A stretch of 64,000 bases of DNA from Neelides folsomi (lineage: Eukaryota; Arthropoda; Collembola; Neelipleona; Neelidae). This document shows positions 287-54,181 of this stretch, in pieces. The stretch lies in contig JAQGBZ010000251.1 of assembly GCA_034687125.1 (NCBI GenBank), forward strand, positions 1 to 64,000, given 5' to 3'. The notes under the pieces are model-generated. The model had not been told where the DNA came from. It saw only the letters and a program-made list of their open reading frames with translations, and did no database searches. How positions within the stretch are numbered: the stretch's first letter is position 1; each line of letters opens with the position of its first letter. Made by a program: the position numbers and the translations under genes.

Positions 287-483
287 TAGTAAAGGCGTAA
301 AGATAAAGAAGTTTACCAAATAACACAAGAGAAGAAGAAGCCTGTCCAACATGTATGTTCTAATCTTTTTCGTTGAGCATAATTCTGCAAAATATTCATT
401 GTCATTAAGTGAAATTTTGATGTTTATATCTTTAAGAGTGAACACTAATTGTGAGTATCTAATATTTAAAAATAATTAAGCAT

Positions 484-3400
484 TCATTTGTATACCCATT
501 CTTGTCCATAAGAATCTGTTAAATCAGTTACAGCTTGTGAATCCCATTTTCCAGCCAGACCAATAAGAATATCGGGAAGAAATCCATTTTGTCCCATGAT
601 TACAAAATAAGTGAAAAAGGATGCAAATGACTCAATGATTCCAAGTTGTCCATATGAATAAAAGACGAGTCTGCAAAAGAAAAAGTTTGAAAACAATGTA
701 ATTGTTAGCCAATTTTTTTAAACACATTCGTACTTACCTCCCAGTCACCAAATTATCGTTAATTGGATCTCTTGGCTTTCTCTTCATGATGTCCCCTTCT
801 GCTTTTTCATAGCTAAGACTAATGGTTGGAACAATGTCTGTTCCGAGACAGATCATCAACCTGCATTGGTCATCAAAAAACATTCATTTAACTCACAACC
901 TACGAGATTAACTCTCAAGATTCCAATTTCATTCTTACATAGGAATAGTGCCCATTGGGAGTGGAATCCTGAGAATGATGAAAATCAACTGTAAACATAT
1001 AAAATCATCTAATTATTGATTATACAAATACCTAACGGGATTTGACTGCGTTGACAGGTTAATATTTATTTAAAGTATTTAAGTATCTGTATATTCCATA
1101 AATTAAAATTACAAATGGAGTAAGTTCGACAATGTTGGCAGCAAGGAGATAGCAAATGCACTTTTTCAAATTGTCAAAGATGAGTCGACCTTCTTCGACT
1201 CCAGAAACAATGGAAATGAAATTGTCATCTAAAAGAATCATGTCGGCCGCCTGCTTCGAAACATCAGAACCAGAAATTCCCATTGCAATACCAATATCAG
1301 CCTTTTTCAGGGCAGGAGAATCTGAAACAAATTACATCAAGAAAATTGTAGAGAGTGGAGTAATCTAATAATACTTTTGAATAGGGAATTTCACCATTAA
1401 CTCCATCCCCTGTCACCGCTACGATATTGTTGAGTCGTTGGAAAGCCTCAACAATGATGAGCTTTTGTTGTGGTGAAACTCGGGCAAAGACAATTTCAGT
1501 GTGGTTTCTACATTGCAATTCACAATTTGTTAACTTTATAACAATTCCTCAATGTTGTTGAAATTTTGCAATGAGATTATCAAGTTATATAAAATATTTT
1601 GGTTACGCCAAAATGTCGTCTAAATGTCCAGAAGCCATTTCCATCAAAGCTTGGCCATTAACAACACAAGCAGTTATTGTATCAGGATTAACTTCAAATG
1701 GATCACATTTCATTCGTTTAGCGACTTCTTCAACGGTTTCATTTCCTTCAAAACCATATTCATTTTAGTTATGTTCAAAGATAATTTTTTAAAGATCTTT
1801 ATTATATTCTAACATTAACTAAGCTGGCGCTCAAATGAATAGCCGATTAAATATTTAATATTTCTAAAACCATTTTAAATTTTTACTCAAAATTTGTATA
1901 TTATATTAATCATTTGAAATGAAGTTGAACAACGTAAAGAAATGACATATTGGAAAACCGCTCATTCGAATAAACACTTTGCTTAATTATGGTGATTAAA
2001 ATTAAAATTTTGGGTTTAATAATTAATTGGTCTTCCATTTTGCTGAATTAAAGCGAAAATTCGATTCTCCATTGAATCAGCCAGAGTTTGAAGCAGGTTT
2101 TCGGGGATTTCACGCCACGCCCGCTCCAACGCAGTCTGAAGCTCAATGATGTTGGCATAAACTTTACTGTTCTCGTAAAGTTTGCGAGTGAGATACCCCC
2201 AAAGATTCTCAATTGGATAGCGAGGAGTGGTTATCCGAATGAGCGACTCAAAATATGAATTTTAATTTTATCTAATGAACTGAACAAGTTTAATTTTTGG
2301 ACACTTGGCCAATTAATTTATAATGCATAGCCGTAAATACAGTCCAAATTTGAAAATTCAAACTTGTCACATTACTTAGTTCTCATAATTTTGTCTCTCG
2401 GTTAAACGTATGAGCGGCAGCTTAAATATAACATACCTTGAGAAATAATTCCAACAGATTTAGCTATTGCTTTAGCTGTAATTGGATGATCTCCAGTGAC
2501 CATTACAACTTTAATACCAGCATTTCTACAACTTTCCACAGCTTCGGGAACTCCTAACCTATAGCATGTATAGAGATTGTATTTTGTATTCCACATTAAT
2601 TATTCTTTTATGATTCTAAATTCTAACCATAATGCTGAAGATTATTGTATTATTTAAATTTTTAAATTTAAATGAAGACCTTGGAGGATCTATCATTGAA
2701 ACAAGGCCAACAAATCTGAGTCCTAACGAAAGAAAACTTGTGTCTTCAGGGTCGAAAACATGGCCGCGTGGATATTTATCAGATGGAAGGAGGAAGTCGC
2801 AAAATCCTAAAATTAAACGGTATGCTTACAATTAGTAAAATTAAATAAAATTCAATTGTAAGTGCTATATTATCCTAATAGTAATTTTTTTTACTATTCA
2901 ATATTTAATTAACTTCTATTAGTATATTTCCACTTACAAAACTGTTTGTGAAATAATGTCTATTTTAATTTTTTAACACCAAGTTAATTACCTATAACTC
3001 TTTCACCCATTTCCGCAATCTGCTCACAAGTTTCGTTAAAATTATAAAGCCAATCATCGTCCAGATCTTCTTCTTTATCTCCAATGAGGATTTTTTTGCA
3101 ATATTTTATGATTCGTTCAGGAGCGCCCTAAGATTTAATCACTCGTTAATGAGGAAAAATCCAAGCGGTTTTAAAAATTCTTACTTTCATGACTAGAAGA
3201 TAACGATCATCCGATGAACTGTCGGTTGAATGTATAGAGACTTGATATTTATTACTTGAATTAAATGGAATTTCAAACAACTTCTTATTGCCTTTTTGGA
3301 ATTCTTCCACTTTACCAAAATTCTGTTCCATTGCACGGATGATGGCAGATTCAGAAGCATCTCCATTAACTTTCCTATAGTGAAGGATGATTGGTTAATT

Positions 3401-5727
3401 TTTAATACATTGGATAAAGTAGGGACAATTATTCAATATTACCTTTCGGCAATTGGTACTGATTCTTGATCAGGAAGAAATTGAGCTCTTGAACATAAAG
3501 TTGCAACTCTTCCAAGATTAAAAAATCCAGCGTCCGATCGTTTATAGTTGAAATTCTCCAGAGTGCTGATGATTTGATTGTTAAACCACATATGCGAAAC
3601 AGTCATTTTATTCTGCGTTAAAGTCCCTGTTTTGTCTGAACAAATAACTGTTGTTGATCCTAAAGTCTCAACCTTAAAATGAAATGTATTAATTACAGAT
3701 AGTATGACCACATTTTAATAAATACAGATACTGTTGTAATTGCTAGTATTGTTAATAATTATGTTTTTGTATTGTATGAGCTTACTGCATGCAATTGTTT
3801 GACAAGACAATTTCTGCCTGCCATTTTCTTCGCAGTTAAGGCCAAAACCACAGTGAAAGTAACGAGGAGTCCTAATGATTAAAAAAATAAACGATATATA
3901 AGAAATATATCGTACTTTCTTCGCATTATTTTTTATGTATTCATAAACATTATTTAGTTAATTACCTTCAGGAACATTTGCGACAATGATTCCAATAAGG
4001 AACAAAGCAGCATCAACCCAATCATATCCTATACTGAGGGAGATAATGAAAAACGAAGCTCCAAAAAACACAGCAACTCCCGAAATGATTTTGACAAAGT
4101 GAGAAACTTCTCGGGCTAAAGGCGTATCAAGAGAGTCAAGCCCGGAAGCTAATCCAGCAATTCTTCCAATAAACGTGTTATCACCAACTCCAACAACAAT
4201 TGCACGACATGTTCCTAATAATTGACATTAAAATAAGTTAAATGTATTTATGGAGATTTGATACTGTCAATTTTTGATGTCATTACCTTCTAATGCATTA
4301 GTAGAGAAGAAAGCAAGATTTTTTGATTCCATTGGATTGTCATCTGTACATTCAGCACTTCTTGATTGAGGTTCTGATTCTCCAGTAATACTTGAATTGT
4401 CGACCTGTTTAATAGCACATTGCTTATATCATAATGTCATGGAATATTTAAATAAATAGCATTTATCAGTATATTATGTTTTACTTTGAACCCGTGAGCT
4501 TCTATTATTCTGATATCAGCAGGGATTCGATCTCCGAATTTAACCTTTAAATAAAATGGGGAGAATTTTTATTTTGAAAATAATAATACTTTAATTTAAA
4601 TGACAATAATTGTAAGCACCTCAACGATGTCGCCAACAACCAACTCAACAGCATTGATATTTTCCAACTTTCCATTTCTTTTTACAACTGCATAGCTTGG
4701 AACCAATTTTGAGAAGGAGTCCATGATTTTTCCACTTGAGTATTCTTGGTAAAATGTGAACAACCCAAGAACAACGACGACGAAAGCCAATACAACTCCG
4801 AGATACAACTATAAAATAATTGTTAAATTACAACAAACGGTTATATTGGTATATGACAAGCCAACACTAATGTCATTTAAACTTTCAAAAATAGCTTACA
4901 TTATCTGGTGGCGGATTCGATAGAATGGTTGATTGAGCTAATAATTCATACAGTAAACAAACGTTAGTTGATTAATCGATTTGTGATATCAGTGATATCA
5001 CATGTAAAGTAATCTAAAAACCTGCAAAAGCAGCAAAACTTAGAAACGATCCAGTCCAAAGAAGGAGCTGAAAACCGCCAAGAAGCGTTTTGATGAATTT
5101 CAACCATGTTGGTTCTTTCTTGGGAGGCGTCAACTCGTTTTTTCCATATTTCCGCAAGTTTTCAATTACCATATTGCTATTCAATCCCTGAAATACATCA
5201 CAGCATCATTTGGAGATGTCTTATATAAAAATAAAGATCAGATTGGAAAATTCTTTACTTTATCAGGATCAGAGTTGAAACGGTTATACAGCGCGCCAAT
5301 ATCAACTTCATGATAATCAATTTGAAGTTCTTTTTTCAGATAACTTATGGACTTCTTTCGGATGTCTTTAGAATGACCAAGATGAAGCTCAACATGCTAA
5401 AACACAATGCTGATTAAAAATTCATCATTTTATTATTTTCAATGTTTTTTCTGTATTAACCTCATCTTCATCTTTGACAAAGTTGGGATTGTCAAGACCG
5501 CCTGTGGAAGGAGACGATGACTTTCTTCTATCCGCTCGGTTTGTTAAATGGTAGGAACTTTTCCTGTCGGTTTTCGCCCAAATTTTGTCATTTGACTATA
5601 ATTTTTATATAACATTGATTATTTCACTATATTAATCATCATTAGTTTATTAAGTAGCTTTATGAAAATTCCTTACGTCAATAACAAGAGAAACTTTTCT
5701 GTTAGAAAACCTTTTCAAATCTGCCAT
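484..5727 (-). CDS. Na+/K+-ATPase alpha subunit-like P-type ATPase (divergent paralogue, C-terminus not found)
   Basis: P2C-type cation pump catalytic chain of the plasma membrane. Exons in transcript order: 5727-5677, 5595-5461, 5396-5259, 5187-5022, 4937-4900, 4808-4620, 4544-4485, 4404-4287, 4214-3966, 3871-3786, 3672-3443, 3374-3185, 3127-2992, 2806-2680, 2558-2437, 1745-1607, 1507-1395, 1321-1113, 988-939, 860-738, 670-496 (or to the stop at 484). All phases agree, giving about 948 codons. Visible motifs: TGES in the A domain, phosphorylation site [17 protein letters not shown] nucleotide site, TGDHP, hinge TGDGVND, M4 NVPEG. The M1-M2 loop keeps Q and the DN pair that matter for ouabain binding. 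Oddities: about 50 extra N-terminal residues rich in K/R/S, M5 reads [10 protein letters not shown] and M6 reads ICLGTD. The last exon ends at DSYGQEW, where a GTATAC donor is followed in frame by a stop. M8-M10 (about 125 residues) are absent, so the gene is either partial at the window edge or truncated. Family membership is certain; transported ions are not. Confidence 0.94.
1950..2253 (-). mobile_element. Internally deleted Tc1/mariner-like element
   Basis: This lies inside an intron of the ATPase gene (1746-2436). The ends are inverted copies of CGCTCATTCGRATAAMCAC (1959-1977 and 2229-2247), possibly extending out to TA dinucleotides at 1948-1949 and 2254-2255. Between them on the minus strand only the C-terminal end of a Tc1-family transposase remains open (about 2237-2016), with readable pieces [29 protein letters not shown] and a terminal GRPINY before the stop. 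The catalytic D,D and the DNA-binding domain are missing, so it cannot move by itself. The transposase signature is clear; the exact ends are inferred. Confidence 0.75.
2016..2237 (-). pseudogene. Transposase C-terminal fragment (Tc1 family)
   Basis: About 73 codons of uninterrupted reading frame ending in TAA at 2016-2018. The PIENLWG motif normally surrounds the last catalytic acidic residue of Tc1 transposases, and the fragment ends with the usual ...GxxxxY tail. There is no start codon or upstream catalytic part, so I call it a relic. It lies antisense to nothing and in the same direction as the host ATPase gene, within its intron. Confidence 0.72.
4982..5002. repeat. 21-base perfect inverted repeat in an ATPase intron
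   Basis: TGTGATATC and GATATCACA are perfect 9-base arms around AGT. It sits just downstream of the exon-4 donor of the ATPase gene (intron 4938-5021), so it could form a small stem in the pre-mRNA. No function is implied. Confidence 0.6.
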
Positions 5728-8381
5728 TGTTTGCTCTAATACTTAATTTATATTGCAATTTAGATAAAGTAATTCGCTGATCAATGAAGAAATAACTAAC
5801 TACAACTTTTTTGATTCTTCATTTTGGATCGATGGACCTCAAATGGTTAATAAAATCAAGCGTAACTGGTTTTAACTTACAAGTTCAACTTTCTAATATT
5901 AATTCAAATTCAAACTAGTGTTGAAAGTGGAAGAACTAAAATGAAGCTGATTGATATTTATGTAGGATCTACAAAATGCTAACTTTTGGAGAACATCAAG
6001 ACTGAGAATAGTTTGAAAATAATTGATGGCAATCTTTAAACCTTTAAAGTTAATGTGTGGTTCCTTATGAAGTAGTAAAGTGAGAATAATCAGTAGAGTA
6101 ATTACAATCTCTCATTGAAAATGCCTAATATAGAATTTTGTATACAACCATCTCACATAAAAATAGCAGGGAACAAAGAGCAAATTTAAAATTCGAGGTT
6201 GATGTTAATTAGCTGTTAGAAAAAGATACCTTCCTATCGTAAGTACTTCAGAATAATTTGCTTCTGTATATGTAATTTTATAAGTTAAGCTCTTAAAGTT
6301 AGTAGCTTTATATAACGATCGTTTTAAAATTTATTAATTATTCATTTGAAAACATTGCCTTTTTAAAAAAGATTATTCATTCAGAAACCAGTCGATTATC
6401 GTTTATAAGCATTGAAGCGAGACGTGTGTGCCCATGTGCTCCCCATTCTCATTCAAAGCCAAATTCAATGCTAAAGGCCAAGGAGGCTCCTTAGATCTTA
6501 ATTGTTTCAATGGAGGAATTCATATTCCTATTGTTTTGCATTGAGCCAGTTTAAAGTGTTGAAGCTAGGCGTCTTTATATGGTAAATACTCACAAATTTG
6601 CACTTTCCTGTGCTACAAGTACAAACTAGTTTTTAAAGACCTCATAAAATTCCTAATGCTAATTTAATACTAAATGACATTTTAAATTAGCAACAATAGT
6701 TAAAATTGGTTTGGGTGACGCCAGAGTTTCAGGTTACTCGTTTAATTAGCCACTGCTCAAATCCCCTCTTTAACGATTTAATATGTAAATTATCAACTTA
6801 GCAAATGGATATAATAATTATGATACCTAAAAATACTTTTCAATTATCAGCATATAAAACACCCAATGGTCATATCTCCCATATTGTAAGTGCAATGAGT
6901 AAGAATCTCCTTTAAACTTTAACAATGAAGTGGTGGTGATTTTTGAATTGTAATTTTGGCTGAGGTGAAACATAAAAGTTTATGGGCCATTTTGATAATT
7001 TTAATAGGTGATTTAACTACTCGACGGGATGAATCAATTTGCCTTAAATGACGTTGACGGTCACAAGAATGAATGAAAGATTACTATCCGAGAGTTTATT
7101 TTACATTTTTCATTTGAATCTAAATTGATCTTGCTTCATAATGTAATTTAGTTGTTAACTTATTAAAGAATTGATTTGATAGCAGTAGATGTTAATATAT
7201 TTATACATTATATTACAAATATTATTATTAACATTTAAATTTATTCTTTTTATAAACTTCAATAAAAGCGTTCACTTTGTGAAAGCCGCCTCACGGGCAA
7301 TAAGTTTTAAATTCAAAGACATGCTATCAGCGTCAACAATAAACAAAATTATTTAAACTCCTTCCAAGAACACTCTGAAAATCTTATCATTCATCATGTC
7401 TATTGAATTGATCTCTAATAAACTAATAAACAAGCTGAAAAGGGGAATTCGATATAAACCTTTTATTTTATATTTTAAAATTAATGCTTTCTAATAGTTA
7501 AAACCCTTAAAGGTAATATTTTCCTATATTTTGTAGGATAGGGATAAGTGTATATAATATTTTTACCTCAGATCTGTGTAAATCAAGGATATTTCGAATG
7601 TTGTACATTATAGCTTGCAAACGATTTGAAAAAGACTAAAATTCTAATAATGAATTTACTTAATTACTGACACATTTATTCCTCATCAAATATATTGGTA
7701 TACTTACTTTTAGTATTTATAAAGGTAAAGATATTTATAACCATTGCATCTATCAGCAAAAGACGTAAGTACCTTATAAGTAAAATTAAAGGAGTTCTGC
7801 CTTAAAAGTCTTGTCATTAGTAGAGGTTTCTAATACTTGTTATAGATTACCTAATTTCACTATATTTTGTGAAATTAGGTTCTAATATATCGATTATAAA
7901 GGACATCCCATAATGTTCTTACTTTTGTAATAATTAGCATTATCTGATAACTACCTGATAATTTCAAACTACTAAAATTGTAACTTGTCTTAATAACAAA
8001 TCATGTCAGTAATGACGTCAATAAATCTGTCCTAAATCAAACCGTGGATGATTCATATATCATATTTAATAATCCTTTAACCTTATCTTATACAACAACA
8101 AAAGCTCACTGTATATTTAAAATAAATTATCGATAAGTTCTTTGTTCTCAAATGCCAACTAAAGGCCTACAAATACAAGGATATTTAAGACAAGACAAGC
8201 AGTCTGAAATTAATGGGGAATTAGGATACTTGATCGGACCTGATGCCTAAGATTTCATCTAGACCCCGCAGCCCATTGGAAAAAACATGTGAAAATATAA
8301 AATATTGAATAAATAAAGGTCCACGTAATAAAGGTTGTTTCATAAATTAACATTAACCGATAACTATAACCATCAGATAAA
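5728..8381. other. Intergenic region between divergent ATPase and RBM34-like genes
   Basis: This is 2.65 kb of AT-rich DNA with no ORF or exon I can support. The two flanking genes are transcribed away from each other, so both promoters should lie here. The only distinct structure seen is the perfect hairpin at 7849-7880. Confidence 0.7.
7849..7880. repeat. Perfect 12-bp stem hairpin
   Basis: ACCTAATTTCAC and GTGAAATTAGGT are exact reverse complements separated by the 8-base AT loop TATATTTT. It lies about 500 bases upstream of the RBM34-like start codon. It could be a small foldback-element remnant or a regulatory palindrome. Confidence 0.7.
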
Positions 8382-20800: not shown

Positions 20801-23800
20801 GATAAATTATCCTGGATCCTCCTATGGCACAGAGGGACCATGAACCAGGCATTAGTATTTCCCATGTGCTCTTGGCCAGATTGATGAGGGAGGGAGGAAT
20901 ATTATTTATTCTCGACTCGAAGAGCCTCCTTGGAAAACCTGGTTTTCTACTAATATGAGCAACACCTGATTGGGGGGTTTATGGTTTCTGCGAGTGGAGG
21001 AGCCTTATATTTGGAAAGAAGGCCCCTATTTGTCAAATGGACATGAGATGGATGAAGGGATCTTTGAATGTTACTAACTTTAAGCACGGAAATTCCTCAT
21101 GATGGGCTGGAATTGAACACTCTTTTGTGGCGGCATCGTAAATTTCCTCCTCCTATTTGATGAGAATTTACACACTCGGACACGCCTCAGTGATGAGGAA
21201 TGGAAGGAGTGATTTTTCCTAAGGAAGACTCCCACTCGTTGGGAATTGAGGTGCTCCTTTGTTTCTTAGCATGAAGCCCACGACTTCCATTCCCTCACTC
21301 CGAGAGATCTTTGGGAAACTGCACTTGGATGAGATGAACGAAGAGAATAGATTTATTGAGAAATTCATTTACTTCATTGCCCAATTGCAGTCGAGAAGTT
21401 CCGTGGTTTCCGACGAGCAACTTGCCAATTTACCTCACATTCTCCACGGCCTCTCGTTCTCACCAAAAAACTGGAACTGAGCTTAAAAGTTGCCTTTCCT
21501 ATCCATTTCTCTTTGCTTATTAGTTGGAGCTGAGACTGGCAATTTTTTTGCATTCATCTGTCAGTAGAAGAAGGAATGATGAGTGAAGAGGTAGGAGCAG
21601 ATAAAGAAAAGTTTTACTTCTTACTCATCTCTTTTTCCTACTATACTTTATATGAGACCAGAACTCACAAATTGGAAGATAAAACGATCAGTGCCAAGCA
21701 GAACTCCAAGTCACTCAGGATTGATGATTGTTAAAAGAAAAGACACTATTTGTAAAAGAGGCTGACTGGTTCAAGTAATTCTTCAATGGTCACAACTGAA
21801 GAGATCTCCGTTACGAACCCCACAGACATAAAAATAGGAAAATTAGGCCATAAATTATTGGGGAAGGGAATTGAGATGGATATCTGATGAGTCCAGTGGG
21901 TGTTTTTCCTTTGCTAAAACCCTCCTACCAAAAATGTCATTTAATTATTTGTGACAATGGGGAGGACGGGAGTATCTGGATGAATTAATTTGTCCCTCGT
22001 CGGGATCTTGATAAGGGCGAGTGTGCATGGGGATTTAATTTCTTCAGCAGGGAGTCTTTTCGAGTGGGAGTGATGGCATTCACTCACTGGCTCCCCATAA
22101 CTCCTATTCTCATTATTTAAGTTCTCTGGATTGAAAAGGAAAAAGGATAAATTGCCCTGCACTTCATCTCTCCTCATAAGTGGCCATATCCAGCCGAGCC
22201 TCCTCATCATCCTCTTTTGATCCAAAGAGAGAAGACAGTCGAAGGAAAGTTTGAGCAGGCTGAGGAAAAGCATGGTGATCCAGATATTTATGAGTTGAGT
22301 AACAAAGTGTGTAGTGGGCTTGGTGGGGCGAATGGCCCTCGACTCTGTTTGCAAGGAAATGATATCAAGCTGCAGAATCTCTCTCACTTAATTGGATTGC
22401 CTTTGATGGAAATGGTAAATGTGATCGTGGAGGAAGGAAGGCCGGACCACCCAATTTGACCTTATTTCCTATAAACCCTATTATACACGAGGAGTATAAT
22501 AAATATAAAACTCTTTCATTCTTTCCCCAATCTATGGACTCTTCAATGGGCGCAAACGAGAAGTTTGAGCAGAATCGGGATTTATCTCCCAGAACATTAA
22601 ATGTATTTGTTTATTTTTTACTCGGGTGACTCTTCGATCCCGTAAAGAGCACTTATAAAATTGAATTGAATGTGTAATTTATTCCCTTTATGTCACACGT
22701 TATTTTATTATGTGACTCTTATGGGCGACCCTGCTCACCGTCCCGAATGCCATTGGGACAGGGAAGAAGTGGTGGGGTAGGAGAAAGATAAGCTAATTCT
22801 TTATTTTGTCAACCCATCTGCCCGTGTCCGTGCAGAGAATGGGGAATGGGAAGAATGGACCCTTGTTGAGGTTGTAAGTGGAGCATCAGAAGAGATGCTG
22901 CAGGATAGGAAAAGAATGTGTTCCATGAAGATCCACTCCCGATCTGTCCACGTCTGTCCTAGAAAGTGGAAAGGAAGAGATGTCTTTGAGATTGTGGAGT
23001 CACTCAACTTGATATTTTCGGCGGGGTGTTTGCCCAAGCCCCCGCGTCGTCGATCCCCTCCCCCCAGAAAAGGACGATCGGAGTGGGAAGCCAAGGGTGG
23101 AAAAAACGTCAGAATGATAAATGTGAACAAGTTCGTCTCGATCGTTTTCATTTTAACGAGAAATGACGGGGAAGACATCTCCCATCATCTCTCCTCCTGA
23201 ATTCCCTCAAATTGCACTCACCCCTGCTCAGTGAGTTTCCCTCTCTCTCAGCACCAGGCATTCATTCCCTGTCATTTTTGAGAGAGTCTGAAGAAGATGA
23301 TTTTCCGTCCGCGCCCCATTCCATTGGAATAAATACCAACGCGTGCCGGAGTTGGAGAGGAAATTAGTGTGGCCAAAACGGAGGAACTCTCCCATTACTT
23401 TTCCCCACCTTGAGTCTAATTGAGTGGCTCAAAGGTTCCTCGTTCATTTTCCCACTCCATCCAGAAGCGGGAGCTGATTGGAAATGCCGGGTGGGAGCGG
23501 AAAGGCTTTTCCGGTCCTTCGCATGTGGTTTTACTTTAGCCCCGTGAAGCCTCATCCAAGGAATTATCTTTCTCACTCCGAACCACATTTTGAAAAAGTA
23601 AACTGAGATATGGTGAGGCTGCTGGGTCTTGCAGTAGCCGCAGTTTGGGGTGAAAATGTCATCATGCCACGCGACCAGGCAGGGAGCTCCGTCTCTCTCA
23701 CTCATTCACTTAAAGAAGAGTCTGGCTAGCTTGAAAGATTTGTTTACATCTGCACGCGGGCTACGCTCCCTTGTCTTTCTTTCTTCTACCCTACCGCCGC

Positions 23801-41545: not shown

Positions 41546-44500
41546 TTAGTCATCCTCCTCATCATCTTCTTCATCGTCTTCTTCTTCGTCTTTTTCACCT
41601 CCACCTTCTTCATTGTCAACAAATTTTTCTTCAACATCTCCAATCTCATGGAGCTGTAATAAAAAAATACATGAAAACATACATTATATTACATAAAACC
41701 CAAAAGTTAATTTATCTACTTAATTGAACGTTTATTTACCTGAAGCTTTGCAAGCCAAGCTTGCTCTTCTTCCACAGTAGGATCCGTCATCTCTCCCAAT
41801 TCAGGACCTTCTATATACGCATCAACTTGTTGAATTGGCATATTGGGGGCGTAAGTATGATTTTTGAATTTCAATCCATCTCCAAAATACACGCTTTCAA
41901 CCTTACCCCTTATAAAAACATAACAAACATTGTTAATTAATACTCAATGATTAAATATTAAGGAAATAAAATTATTATAAATAATGTGAAAAGTATTTTA
42001 TGACATGTGATATTTTATACAGCTTGTTTACTTTATACCTTTCTTTTTTAAATTCCTAATAATACTACTATAATACTACTTCCTTAGTTATTGGGAATTT
42101 CAAAAAGAAAGGTGCAAAGTAAACACGCTGTATAATAATATGTTAACTTGATTGTGCAAATCGTCTCAGATCCAGGCCAAAGATTTGACACAGCTTTAAC
42201 GACTTGAAACTCTTGAAAGACACTCGACGAAGGTCTGAAGCTGAATGGCAAAGATCCATCAAATGCAATATCATCCTTCACTGGTGAAAATAGTCCAGGG
42301 CCAAATTCCCCTTGACCTGGAGGATTTTCTGGTCCTTCGCCATCTTCTCCCATTATTTCTTCATCACTCATTGTATTCCACCAGTCGACTCTTCCCTGCA
42401 TCAAGATATAAGAAACGTGATGAATCCACGCGTCTCCCTTTGGATTTAGCAATTCTTTCATAAAAGTCGGCCTGAACTTTTTGTTCGGATACACTTTGTC
42501 ATTCACTTTAAAAAATTAATAAATTATAACAATCTTATAGGTGAATTAGCATCTTAAAGCAAAGTATTATTTAAAGTTAATTAAAGTTAGTTATACAAGA
42601 TCCTGCATCTTCGCCTTCCTCCTCTTCGTCCATAAATTCGTCATAAGCTTTTGACCGGAAATATCCCTTTGGAGAAATTTCACTCCCTGCCTTGATCCTT
42701 GCAATAAGTGCTCTCAAGTAATTCGCTTCTCTTCCAGGAAATTCAGGCAAAGTTCTTATTTCCGCTTCAAGTTCTCCGTTCAATGCCCATCGAACAGACC
42801 TTGACACGCTGATTTGTTCTGGTGTAACTTGAGGCAAAAGATACCAAATTCCATCGAGTTCATTACAAACATAAAATGTTCGACGATTACATCCTTGTCC
42901 CCAATTCTCTTGTGGGATTGGAGGAGGCAAAACTTCATGTTGGAGATCTGGAAAATGATCCATCATTTCCAATTGATATCCTTGCCATTTCATTTGTTCC
43001 TCTACTCCTTCTGGATCAGAGATATTTGTAAGGTCGGCTGCAAGTGAGTTGCGAATAACAACTTCTTCACCGCAAACTTCATCGTCTCCTTTGAGGGGAT
43101 CTCGTTCTTTCATTGGTGGGATTCCAGAAATTGCTTTCTTGCTTTGGTAAAGTTTAAGAATTTCAGGATCGGTAACTGCTTCGGCAGCCCTTTCAAAAGA
43201 CGCACCTGCACCTGGACGATAACACATACAAGGATCGCATTTGCAGTCGACATTGCAATCTTCACCACACTTCTCGTCATAGTCTGTGATCTTTATTGCA
43301 GTACGCTTAAAAAATTTATGATATTAATTACAATTCGAGATTCAAAAAATGTAAATTTAAGTGGGTATTTAATTTAAAGCTAAAGTATATTAAATATTAT
43401 GTAATTCAAATAAGAAAAGTACCGGTGGTAGTTGCCAAAGATCGTCCATTAATTCTACATCCATTTCGGCTTCGGCAACATAATAATTCTTGTTGCGACC
43501 AAATATTTTTCCAAAGAATCTAAATGGCAAAAGCTCAATTTAACAACAATCTTTTTATTTGTCACTAATTGTCAATATATATATAATATATATTTGCATG
43601 TAGTAATTTAAAAATGAATCTTACCGAATGCGGGTAATATTTGGGCGTGTGATAGCTAATTGACGAATGGACAAAGCAAGTTTAAGCATTTCCTCTCTTG
43701 GGAGTCCAATTCCAACTTGTTCCAGATAATAAAGTAAACGAAGAAGATTAGGAAATCCGTCAAATGACTTTATTTCTTCTTCCTTGCTCTGTAAGCCTTC
43801 AACACTTTCCATTGACCATTGAGCATTTTGCTAGATTTTTTATTATACGATAAATATGACAAATATGGTATATGGTAGACATAAAAATGTATTTTAATAT
43901 TAAAATGGGTACAAAATTTTATATAAAAACCTTCCAGTTTTCAACAAGATTTCGACATGTGTCCAAAACTCTTTTGCTGATTGTGTAATCATCAAAAATG
44001 ACGTCTTTGTTCATCCGGAACCTATACCGTTTGACGTTCATGCTGATTTCTTCAATATAATCAACAGGATCAGTGGGAGCTTTTCGATCCAGAAGTTTTC
44101 TTATAAGTTCACTGAAGTGCTCGTATCTAAAATGAAAATTTATCATCTTTGCAAATTTTATTAAATATTTGAGTTTAAAGTTGATTTACAATGAAATCCC
44201 TGATTTTTCACTCGTTTTCATAAAATATTCCTTTGCTCGAATAAAGTCGTCTAATTGAAAACCATTGTCATCTTCATCCCCAGCCTCGTCTTCGCCGATA
44301 ACTAAAATAAAGAAAGTTTAATGTGGAACATTGGAAATTGAGTCAACAAAATTTATTTTATCATAAGTGAAATCACTACCTTTGATTAATTGAGATCCTT
44401 CGGTTGGCACTTCTGTGTAAGCGCCTTCGCCTTCATCTTGATCCCATTCATTTTGATCATACATTTGATCCCATTCATCACCATCTTCCTGATATTCATT

Positions 44501-51297: not shown

Positions 51298-52191
51298 ATG
51301 TGTTTATTCAAGAAGTTATTAAACTTTGGACTTTTGTTTTGTACGATTTATTTCATTAGTTCAACTGTTGCTTATATTCAAGCTCGAGATAAACTTCGAG
51401 CTAACGTGAGCTGTGCAAGGCTTTATGAAAAAAGATTCTGGGATGGAAATTCAACAGAATTCAACAATTTTGAGAAGAAAACGACGCTTGGCATTTGGAA
51501 CAGTCGAGCTCAATCAGTCATTGTGAAGGATCGCTGCACTCTCACACTCAAAGACGATGCTGGGAAAACAAAAATCCAAGATTATGATGTAAACAATCTC
51601 GTTAAATCCTCTCAAGCACATTAATCTTTTCTAAAGTTTAAGATTATCCATGTTTTAGATTATTTAATTTAATTACTTTAATTATTATTTTACAGATCCA
51701 CTGTCTATGGAAGGTAATTTGGAAAGCTCCAATAAAGTGGAGATTCATCAATTCCATTTGGCAAGTTGAGTAAGATTGTTTTAATTAAAAACTATTGTAG
51801 TGGAACAAAAAGGCCACGGCTGGGTGCTGCGAATGCGGTGGGTGTGTGGCTTATCATGATTATCCGGAGGAAGTCCCTTGTGCGAAACTCTTCCAAGCTA
51901 GGTCATGTAGTTTTTGCCGAGGAGAAAACTTGGCCGTAAATGTGAATGAGGCTGGAGATTCTCTCCCGACTTCCTGGCAGTACGGCGTCGCTTCAATGAT
52001 AGTCAAATCTGGATGCTTTCTAAATGTCTCTGACAAGACGGGATTTAGAGGAAGAAATGAAACTTTTTGGGGAGCACACGATTCTCTCCCGAGGGTAAAC
52101 TTCTCAAATTATCGCGACTTTCTAATTATTCCTTTTACAGCTATGGCACAATCGGATCGCATCCTACAAGTGCTGGTGCCAGTCTGGATAA
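51298..52191 (+). CDS. Secreted beta/gamma-crystallin-like protein
   Basis: Proposed exons: 51298-51588, 51696-51713, 51801-52094, 52141-52191 (217 aa). The N-terminus MCLFKKLLNFGLLFCTIYFI is a clear signal peptide. Two Greek-key pairs follow. Domain 1 has ARLYEKRFWDG, LGIWNSRAQSVIVKDRCTLTL, then WNKKATAGCCEC. Domain 2 has CAKLFQARSCSF, SWQYGVASMIVKSGCFLNV, then LWHNRIASYKCWCQSG and the stop. The repeated W-N-x-R/K-A-S pattern and Y-x4-W-x-G are the beta/gamma-crystallin signature, and the many cysteines suit an extracellular protein. Exon 2 as drawn is an 18-base microexon (IHCLWK) needed to reach the second half of domain 1. A longer version ending at about 51768 also keeps the frame but uses a poor donor. 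Role unknown; secreted relatives exist in many invertebrates. Confidence 0.62.
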
Positions 52192-54181
52192 AATGGCTAC
52201 TAGGGATTCTCCAAGACAGAAGTTCATTTACTTATTCGCTCCAATATTCTTGCTCATCCTACTGAATATCCATATACAGCTCTCTATTGAGTAGTTATTA
52301 TAGAGTTTAAATCTTAACCCACTTTGGAAATGTTAAAGGTATGCTTTAGATGCTATTTGTTACAAAGATTGGGAAAACTAATTCAATTATTATCATTCAA
52401 GCGAGAAATATTTAATTCAATTTAGTGCCTTAAAGTACGTTAATAATTTTTAATATTAAGTATGAACGGATTTAGTTTAGGTAATTGAGAGGCATTGTGT
52501 AGAAAAGTAATTTGAAATATAATTAGGAGTGTTTGTAATTTATTATTTAATGTGCGAATTTTCTTTATATTTATTGCAACTTGCGAATTAAAGGTCTTAT
52601 AGGTTCATTAGATAATTGTTCAAAGGTTATTTATTAGTTGTGTTTTTTTGTTATTCAAAATGCCTCTGTATATTCAATGCATACCTAAATAATGGACAAG
52701 TACAGTAATTTAATAGCAACAATATTTTATAATATCTACAAATACTTAAATGCCAAAAGATAAATGTAGATTCAATACACCAATTATAATTTCACATCAT
52801 AAAATAATTTAGATTTCAAATATTATACTTGTACACATTCTACGTATTTATGTTATTAAGAGAGTGTTGAGATTATATGAAATATATTAAAATCGTAAAG
52901 ATCACTTTATGTGCAAAAGGCATGATTGATCCACCTTTCCCATTCCTTTCAAGAGCAATTTAGACGAATAGAAAATGAAAGAAATGCCAACTTTGACTTT
53001 TTTATTACTCTTATTACTTTTCATCTTTCGATTTGGTTCAAGTATTCACAAATTCTCAATTTCATTTCATCATTGAGAATTCAAAAAGGATCCTGGCTGT
53101 TAAATAAATTATTAGTTTCTGATTCCATCCACCCTATGTTCCTCTATGTCGTCTACTATCTGTACACAAATGCGAAGCCCAATATTGCCAATACACCATT
53201 GATATAAAAATACATCTTTATCATGTAGTCTGTAGTATAATATGCTCAAAAGGTCATAAAGTCATTATAGTATTTAATTTCGCATGGAATAATATACGAA
53301 TGTAAATGTATATTTGGTAATTTGACATTTATTGGGTATTCAGGATTTCTCAATAAAAAACATAAACTTAATTATGCCATTCATTGGCAATTTCAAAGAA
53401 TTATATTAAAATGCTGATTGTGTGATAATAAATATATTGTGCTTTTTAAAATTATTTATATAAATTACTTCAAAACAATAACTATTACTAAACTAATTGC
53501 CTATAAATCATATTTTTGTATGTATGAAGATAACATTAAGTACTTTACTTAATTTTATATTTAGCGTTATTTATTTATTTACTAATATTAAAATATTTGA
53601 ATATTTAATCGAAAGCGAGTCATGCTTTTTTAATACTACTTAAATTAAACTTCAATACCAATAAAATTATAATGGGATTTTTCAAAATGCAATACCTTTA
53701 TATTATGAAAATGCAGCATTGCATCTAAACACTAAATTACCGTGATAAATATTTAAATTATACTAAAATGGCTATTTTGAAGGCAATCACGTCTAAAATA
53801 ACAATCTCTAAAGTGTAATAAAGTATATGATCGTAGAGTAGATATTTTATGTAGGATAAGATATATTTTATATCATATGATATCACTTTACTACCTCTCA
53901 AGATACGAGTTATTGATTTTAACAAAAGTTAAAGTTCCATATTATACCCATTACCAAAAGGAAGATACATGCATAGTATGCATAGGTAGTATGAAACTCG
54001 TTAGGTTCGTGCCACATGTCGCCTGAATATTAAAATCTTGTATTTGCATTGGCGAACAGTTAGCAGACCAATATGTAGGTAGTTTGTCTATGCACTTTGG
54101 GAATTTATCTTTGTGTTTCCAGTATTATTTATAAATAAGCATCTCAAAATTTAATTTGCCTTTATATTTTTTATTTAGTTA

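Follow-up and report, generated by a model that had tools for sequence, protein, structure and literature searches.

The closest described relatives of the gene reported here are the alpha chains of the canonical Na,K-ATPase (human alpha-3, PDB 8d3u, and pig alpha-1, whose numbering is used throughout with an offset verified at 14 positions). In these pumps Asp804 is reported to take part in the two K sites and also, according to simulations, in Na sites I and II; Ser775 contributes to K site I, Thr772 and Asn776 to site I, and the backbone of residue 774 to Na site III (PMC5026471). The same source describes D804N as keeping the selectivity for Na over K, and raising it at site II, and D926N as losing most of the Na selectivity. 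Ser775 (777 in rat) is described as common to Na sites I and III (PMC10812997). According to the same account, bulky residues at this position left Na-activated phosphorylation through site II and no pumping, Na at site II alone being able to drive phosphorylation, and small residues (Gly, Thr, Asn) gave a pump that was still active; Ala was not one of the seven replacements examined there. M5 is said there to be bent in the E2 state by a proline near Ser775. At the position of Asp804, the ATP1A3 variant D801N is reported to impair the pump strongly (PMC13134723).

Departures from this arrangement occur naturally in several related proteins. The gastric and non-gastric H,K-ATPase alpha chains are P2C pumps with changes at 775 and 804; in the gastric enzyme 775 is Lys and 804 is Glu (YTLTKNIPE, LFIELCTD), and the non-gastric enzyme is reported to have Ala at the Pro778 position (PMC9463140), so that a working pump tolerates the loss of this proline. 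Among arthropods, the brine-shrimp alpha2KK chain (PDB 8k1l) also has an altered ion site and has been reported to exchange 2Na:1K (PMC10812997). Nematodes are ecdysozoans in which one genome holds several divergent alphas, CATP-1 to CATP-3; whether these have a pump-independent role is debated (PMC11631496). Divergent nematode alpha sequences, which we infer to be CATP-1 to -3, have further been reported to be without SYGQ, the motif of beta assembly (PMC9609216).

The window analysed here, that is, the whole stretch of 64,000 nucleotides, covers positions 1-64000 of contig C251 (92,207 bp) in a genome of 75.1 Mb and 840 contigs. Near its start it carries an alpha-chain gene on the minus strand, running from 5727 to 317 in 22 exons, with all introns of the GT-AG type. 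Exon 1 (5677-5727) holds an ATG, picked by eye as the start codon, ahead of a GT donor, and is followed by exon 2 (5461-5595). Alignment to human alpha-3 placed exons 3 (5259-5396), 4 (5022-5187; M1 region), 5 (4900-4937; M1-M2 loop), 6 (4620-4808; M2 and A domain), 7 (4485-4544), 10 (3786-3871), 12 (3185-3374; N domain), 16 (1607-1745), 19 (939-988; M5-M6) and 21 (496-670; M7, the M7-M8 loop and the beta-assembly motif, here DSYGQEW, whose role is taken from PMC9609216). Comparison of motifs placed exons 8 (4287-4404; A domain, TGES), 11 (3443-3672; phosphorylation motif DKTGTLT), 13 (2992-3127; KGAPE, with its K in the region of the exon 12/13 junction), 14 (2680-2806; DPPR), 15 (2437-2558; [12 protein letters not shown]) and 17 (1395-1507; TGDGVN). 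Exons 9 (3966-4214; M3 and M4, with NVPEG and E327), 18 (1113-1321; end of the P domain and M5) and 20 (738-860; M6) were read position by position at the ion site, with their codons, and exon 22 (317-384; start of M8) was defined from the gene model and comparison with paralogues. The window thus covers the chain from M1 to the start of M8, and the 2912 coding bases (970 codons) read are open, with no internal stop. The product scores 1360.8 bits against TIGR01106, the family model of Na,H/K P-type ATPase alpha chains (cut-off 946.1), and 1180 bits against human alpha-3, with 58% identity over 895 residues. By its sequence the gene is a class IIC (P2C; Na,K/H,K) ATPase alpha chain and a divergent member of a fast-evolving, lineage-specific group of paralogues, in keeping with the Na,K-ATPase alpha paralogue that the preliminary description had recognized from positions 738-1321. 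That range comprises exons 18 (from 1321 to 1113), 19 (988 to 939) and 20 (860 to 738), which splice into one continuous protein reading (...[46 protein letters not shown]...).

Several other features of the window and the genome were recorded. Intron 15 contains an 81-codon frame (2016-2261, minus strand) with no Pfam match, which we take to resemble the end of a Tc1/mariner transposase, and parts of the intron stretch 1765-2436 recur on C318, C52, C173, C118 and C288. Between 14000 and 34000 the GC content is 0.43, with flanks of about 0.31 and no listed open frame longer than 183 codons; a 1.5 kb probe from this block (22000-23500) matches only itself in the genome. A radial spoke head protein is encoded at 42577-43323 on the minus strand (PF04712, 144 bits), which makes motile cilia or flagellate sperm probable in this animal. 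A weak match to Syncollin (PF15138) lies at 51801-52265 on the plus strand, with 26.9 bits under a cut-off of 32.8. On the mitochondrial contig C742 (15,157 bp), whose protein genes were named by eye, tRNA-Leu(UUR) lies between COX1 and COX2, presumably a mark of Pancrustacea, and the gene order otherwise reads as the ancestral pancrustacean one. This order, together with the radial spoke gene of the window, led us to reject a nematode source for the DNA.

The ion site differs from that of canonical alpha chains by T772L, T774A, S775A and P778V, all in exon 18, and D804C in exon 20, M5 and M6 reading YLLAANIVE and ICLGTD. The canonical ligand set T772, S775, N776, E779, D804, D808 and E327 is accordingly incomplete, with T772, S775 and D804 replaced. 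Unchanged are V322, A323, N324, V325, E327, Y771, N776, E779 and D808. The substitutions T774A, S775A, P778V and D804C, claimed earlier, were all recovered in the spliced gene with their codons checked, and E327, N776, E779 and D808 are retained as had been stated, E327 being located in exon 9, beyond the range then described. That list lacked T772L as well as additional substitutions in M6, among them I800M and C802M. A splice error was rejected as the origin of D804C; a splicing artefact behind the substitutions is unlikely, since the exon ends obey GT/AG and the alignment to human alpha-3 runs without gaps through M5 and M6. The gastric pattern is absent, as Ala and Cys stand in place of Lys775 and Glu804, although the gene shares with the H,K-ATPases its departures at 775 and 804, and with the non-gastric enzyme, as described in PMC9463140, the lack of Pro778. 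Positions 324 and 776 are both occupied by Asn and D804 is lost, unlike in the brine-shrimp chain, and a lysine of the alpha2KK type is absent from its M5.

One further resemblance concerns the Ca pumps. SERCA1 has no beta subunit. It belongs to another P2 subclass, and its M5 and M6 in the PDB (YLISSNVGE, VNLVTD) have Leu, Asn and Glu at 772, 776 and 779 and Asp at 808, exactly the residues found in the window gene, so that the pocket might have drifted towards the pattern of pumps for Ca or other divalent cations and might carry a different ion. Agreement at so few positions can, however, arise by chance: residue 804 is Cys rather than the Asn of SERCA1, the rest of M4-M6 is of the Na,K type, and no Ca-pump model reaches its cut-off, whereas TIGR01106 is far above its own. 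We regard a change of this kind as very improbable.

The catalytic part of the protein has fared differently from the ion site. Across seven catalytic motifs ([27 protein letters not shown]) 1 of the 66 positions differs from human alpha-3, in line with the earlier description of the phosphorylation, A-domain and hinge motifs as intact. By comparison, four of the seven ligand positions are changed (Fisher P = 0.00016). Human alpha-3, pig alpha-1 and L022, the most conserved alpha of the same genome, agree at these seven (327, 772, 774, 775, 779, 804 and 808, with 774 as a backbone ligand); 324 and 776 were left out because L022 differs there, 776 being unchanged in the window gene. The rate of ligand change is not significantly above that of all 587 positions conserved across the same three chains, 143 of which are changed (P = 0.06), nor is it with a wider set in which four of 11 ligand positions are changed (P = 0.27). 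The ligands are thus without their former special protection, as they have changed far more often than the catalytic motifs yet without a significant excess over other conserved positions, and they form no hot spot. Between the window gene and the four paralogues, the differences at first, second and third codon positions (0.32-0.40, 0.22-0.26 and 0.57-0.62) follow the pattern expected for a selected coding sequence; third positions among the paralogues are too diverged for dN/dS.

At its 3' end, on which the preliminary description was silent, the gene passes into a transposable element where the contig ends. The window starts at base 1 of the contig, inside this element, of which positions 1-289 represent the end of a palindromic unit of about 980 bp cut by the contig start. 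A full copy lies at C189:2408-3389, parts are also present on C182 and C407, and the unit ends in CTATCA...TGATAG, with a probable TA target duplication. Between the element and exon 22 are 27 bases (290-316, minus strand) that are either the start of an intron or decayed exon. Exon 22 has 68 nt, against 131 coding nt in all four paralogues (one exon in L023, L024 and L025, two in L022), and if left unspliced it would meet an in-frame stop one residue further on. The element thus begins 27 bases past this exon, and reading in three frames as far as the edge of the window showed no match to the remainder of M8. It is conceivable, then, that the gene has recently been broken, or is breaking, in M8 through the transposable element, after constraint on the ion site had been relaxed. 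Against this, the 970 codons are open and all introns keep GT-AG ends, and exon 22 itself stops at GTAAAC, a donor that could be used. When the M8 stretch that is missing was sought with a peptide, only L024, L025 and L023 matched and no free piece was revealed, but this silence is weak, as the split copy of L022 was missed too; the test for a decayed exon in the 27 bases was without power, its positive control being detected against one of the four paralogues.

A possible continuation of the gene lies elsewhere. Contig C61 (239,972 bp) carries at its far end two minus-strand exons, 102 and 118 nt long, that code for M9 and M10 and are intact to a stop codon, closing in ERETYY, with only about 135 bases of contig upstream of them. 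Two of the paralogues, L023 (aligned part 222.7-228.2 kb) and L024 (230.4-235.5 kb), are situated on C61 on the same strand as these exons. Because matching last exons stand intact and in the right orientation at the end of C61, this contig is probably followed by C251, and the window gene would be the third of a tandem trio. On the simplest reading, the gap between the contigs would hold the remaining part of the element together with about 21 residues from M8 and the loop that follows; Q923 and D926 of the window gene fall within this gap, and position 954 is Glu in the C61 exon, if that exon belongs to the gene. The two exons, on the same condition, also speak against a broken gene, a reading to which we assign a low probability.

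Five alpha genes were found in the genome, and none is canonical at every ion position read. L022 (C501:2500-12499), with 69% identity to human alpha-3, keeps D804, D808 and D926 but carries N324W (TGG) and N776K (AAA), the codons lying at locus positions 5775 and 7742. L023 and L024, in which M5 is split by an intron and was read from the spliced alignment, have S775D, P778T or A, and D926N, and L025 (on C38) has T774A, S775D, P778A, D804V and D926N. S775D and D926N occur together in L023, L024 and L025, as though M8 had given up an acidic residue to M5. The C-terminal YY is present in L022, L023 and L024, and the alignment of L025 stops one residue earlier, in LY. An unrooted tree (LG+G4, ultrafast bootstrap) built from the five alphas, human alpha-3 and pig alpha-1 sets the vertebrate chains and L022 apart from the other four with support of 100, the window gene grouping with L024 and L025 at 90. 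Of the 19 intron positions of the window gene that could be mapped, on a model without its first two exons, 11 are held in common with L023 and 11 with L024. Position 324 is what we take to be the M4 lysine position of alpha2KK; L022 has the M5 lysine of that chain, but Trp rather than Lys at 324. Among solved structures 8k1l gave the best score for the M5-M6 and C-terminal pieces of L022, though not for its M3-M4 piece or the whole protein, and the likeness may reflect a general arthropod resemblance rather than orthology. Searches with PF00689 (8 matches from 14 candidates), with the human alpha-3 M5-M7 peptide (19 from 21) and with an M4-P peptide (7 from 10) matched only these five alphas and a gene on C52 (L021), and thus disclosed no canonical alpha elsewhere in the assembled genome. 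The C52 gene reads as a PMCA-like Ca pump, a call made by eye. The Na,K-ATPase beta-subunit model PF00287 has 13 exon matches in all on C31, C469, C19 and C204.

How might such an alpha chain work? Our preferred but tentative reading, to which we give slightly less than an even chance, is that the window gene encodes a P2C alpha chain that assembles with beta and has weakened ion sites, its cycling moving fewer ions per ATP, proceeding independently of K or being partly uncoupled. In such an enzyme sites I and III would be weakened, the carboxylate of Asp804 would be missing from both K sites, and in the E2 state the bend of M5 would be eased. A site-II-like cation pocket would be the main remainder, with the M4 backbone site kept. 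Phosphorylation by ATP would then still depend on a cation and K would bind poorly, so that whichever of the three outcomes applied, the protein would not be a 3Na:2K pump. The altered sites of the other four alphas, the beta-subunit genes, the retained SYGQ and the nearly unchanged catalytic motifs together suggest a pump of this kind. The published tolerance at 775 and 778, set beside the effect of ATP1A3 D801N, makes S775A and P778V tolerable on their own, and D804C therefore would be the heaviest change. For the earlier proposal of a changed selectivity or stoichiometry the support is partial and only indirect, coming from published mutants and from the altered ion sites of the genome's other alphas. 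Several observations count against our preferred reading. S775A alone would not be expected to disable sites I and III, the mutants limited to phosphorylation being bulky ones in the account of PMC10812997. The excess of ligand changes over the conserved background stands at P = 0.06, the D926 region falls in the gap, and the 3' end is possibly broken.

The loss of Asp804 and other ligands, with SYGQ kept, would also fit an alpha that does not pump at all but assembles with beta and reaches the membrane to serve there in a scaffolding, junctional or regulatory role, the catalytic motifs being kept for folding or signalling. A pump-independent role of this sort has been proposed for nematode CATP-1 (PMC11631496); the same paper, however, finds pump activity to matter for one phenotype. 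The window gene has SYGQ, which is reported to be absent from divergent nematode alphas. It retains four acidic or amide ligands as well as 65 unchanged positions out of 66 in its catalytic motifs. A pure scaffold is disfavoured because it would have no obvious need for intact phosphorylation, ATP-binding and hinge motifs, and we consider a non-pumping alpha rather improbable.

The preferred reading, that of a pump with weakened ion sites, has a broader counterpart. The only near-canonical alpha of the genome, L022, carries N324W and N776K, and the other four have moved or lost acidic ligands; the animal might therefore be without any canonical 3Na:2K pump, the whole organism being energized by pumps of reduced stoichiometry. 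We hold this to be possible but unlikely, the count of alphas referring to the assembled contigs. Among the open-licence papers listed for ion-site paralogues or divergent arthropod alphas, neither an alpha paralogue lacking D804 nor an animal without a canonical alpha was found in the titles or the opening lines of the abstracts. The five alphas, each of them off the canonical ion site and in different ways, represent a natural set of mutants for asking by which ligands stoichiometry and selectivity are set; among the five as read, the M5/M6 ligands are most neutralized in the window gene. Exchange at 3Na:2K is commonly regarded as near-universal in animals; if the broader reading is true, the question arises of how an animal lives without the standard pump.
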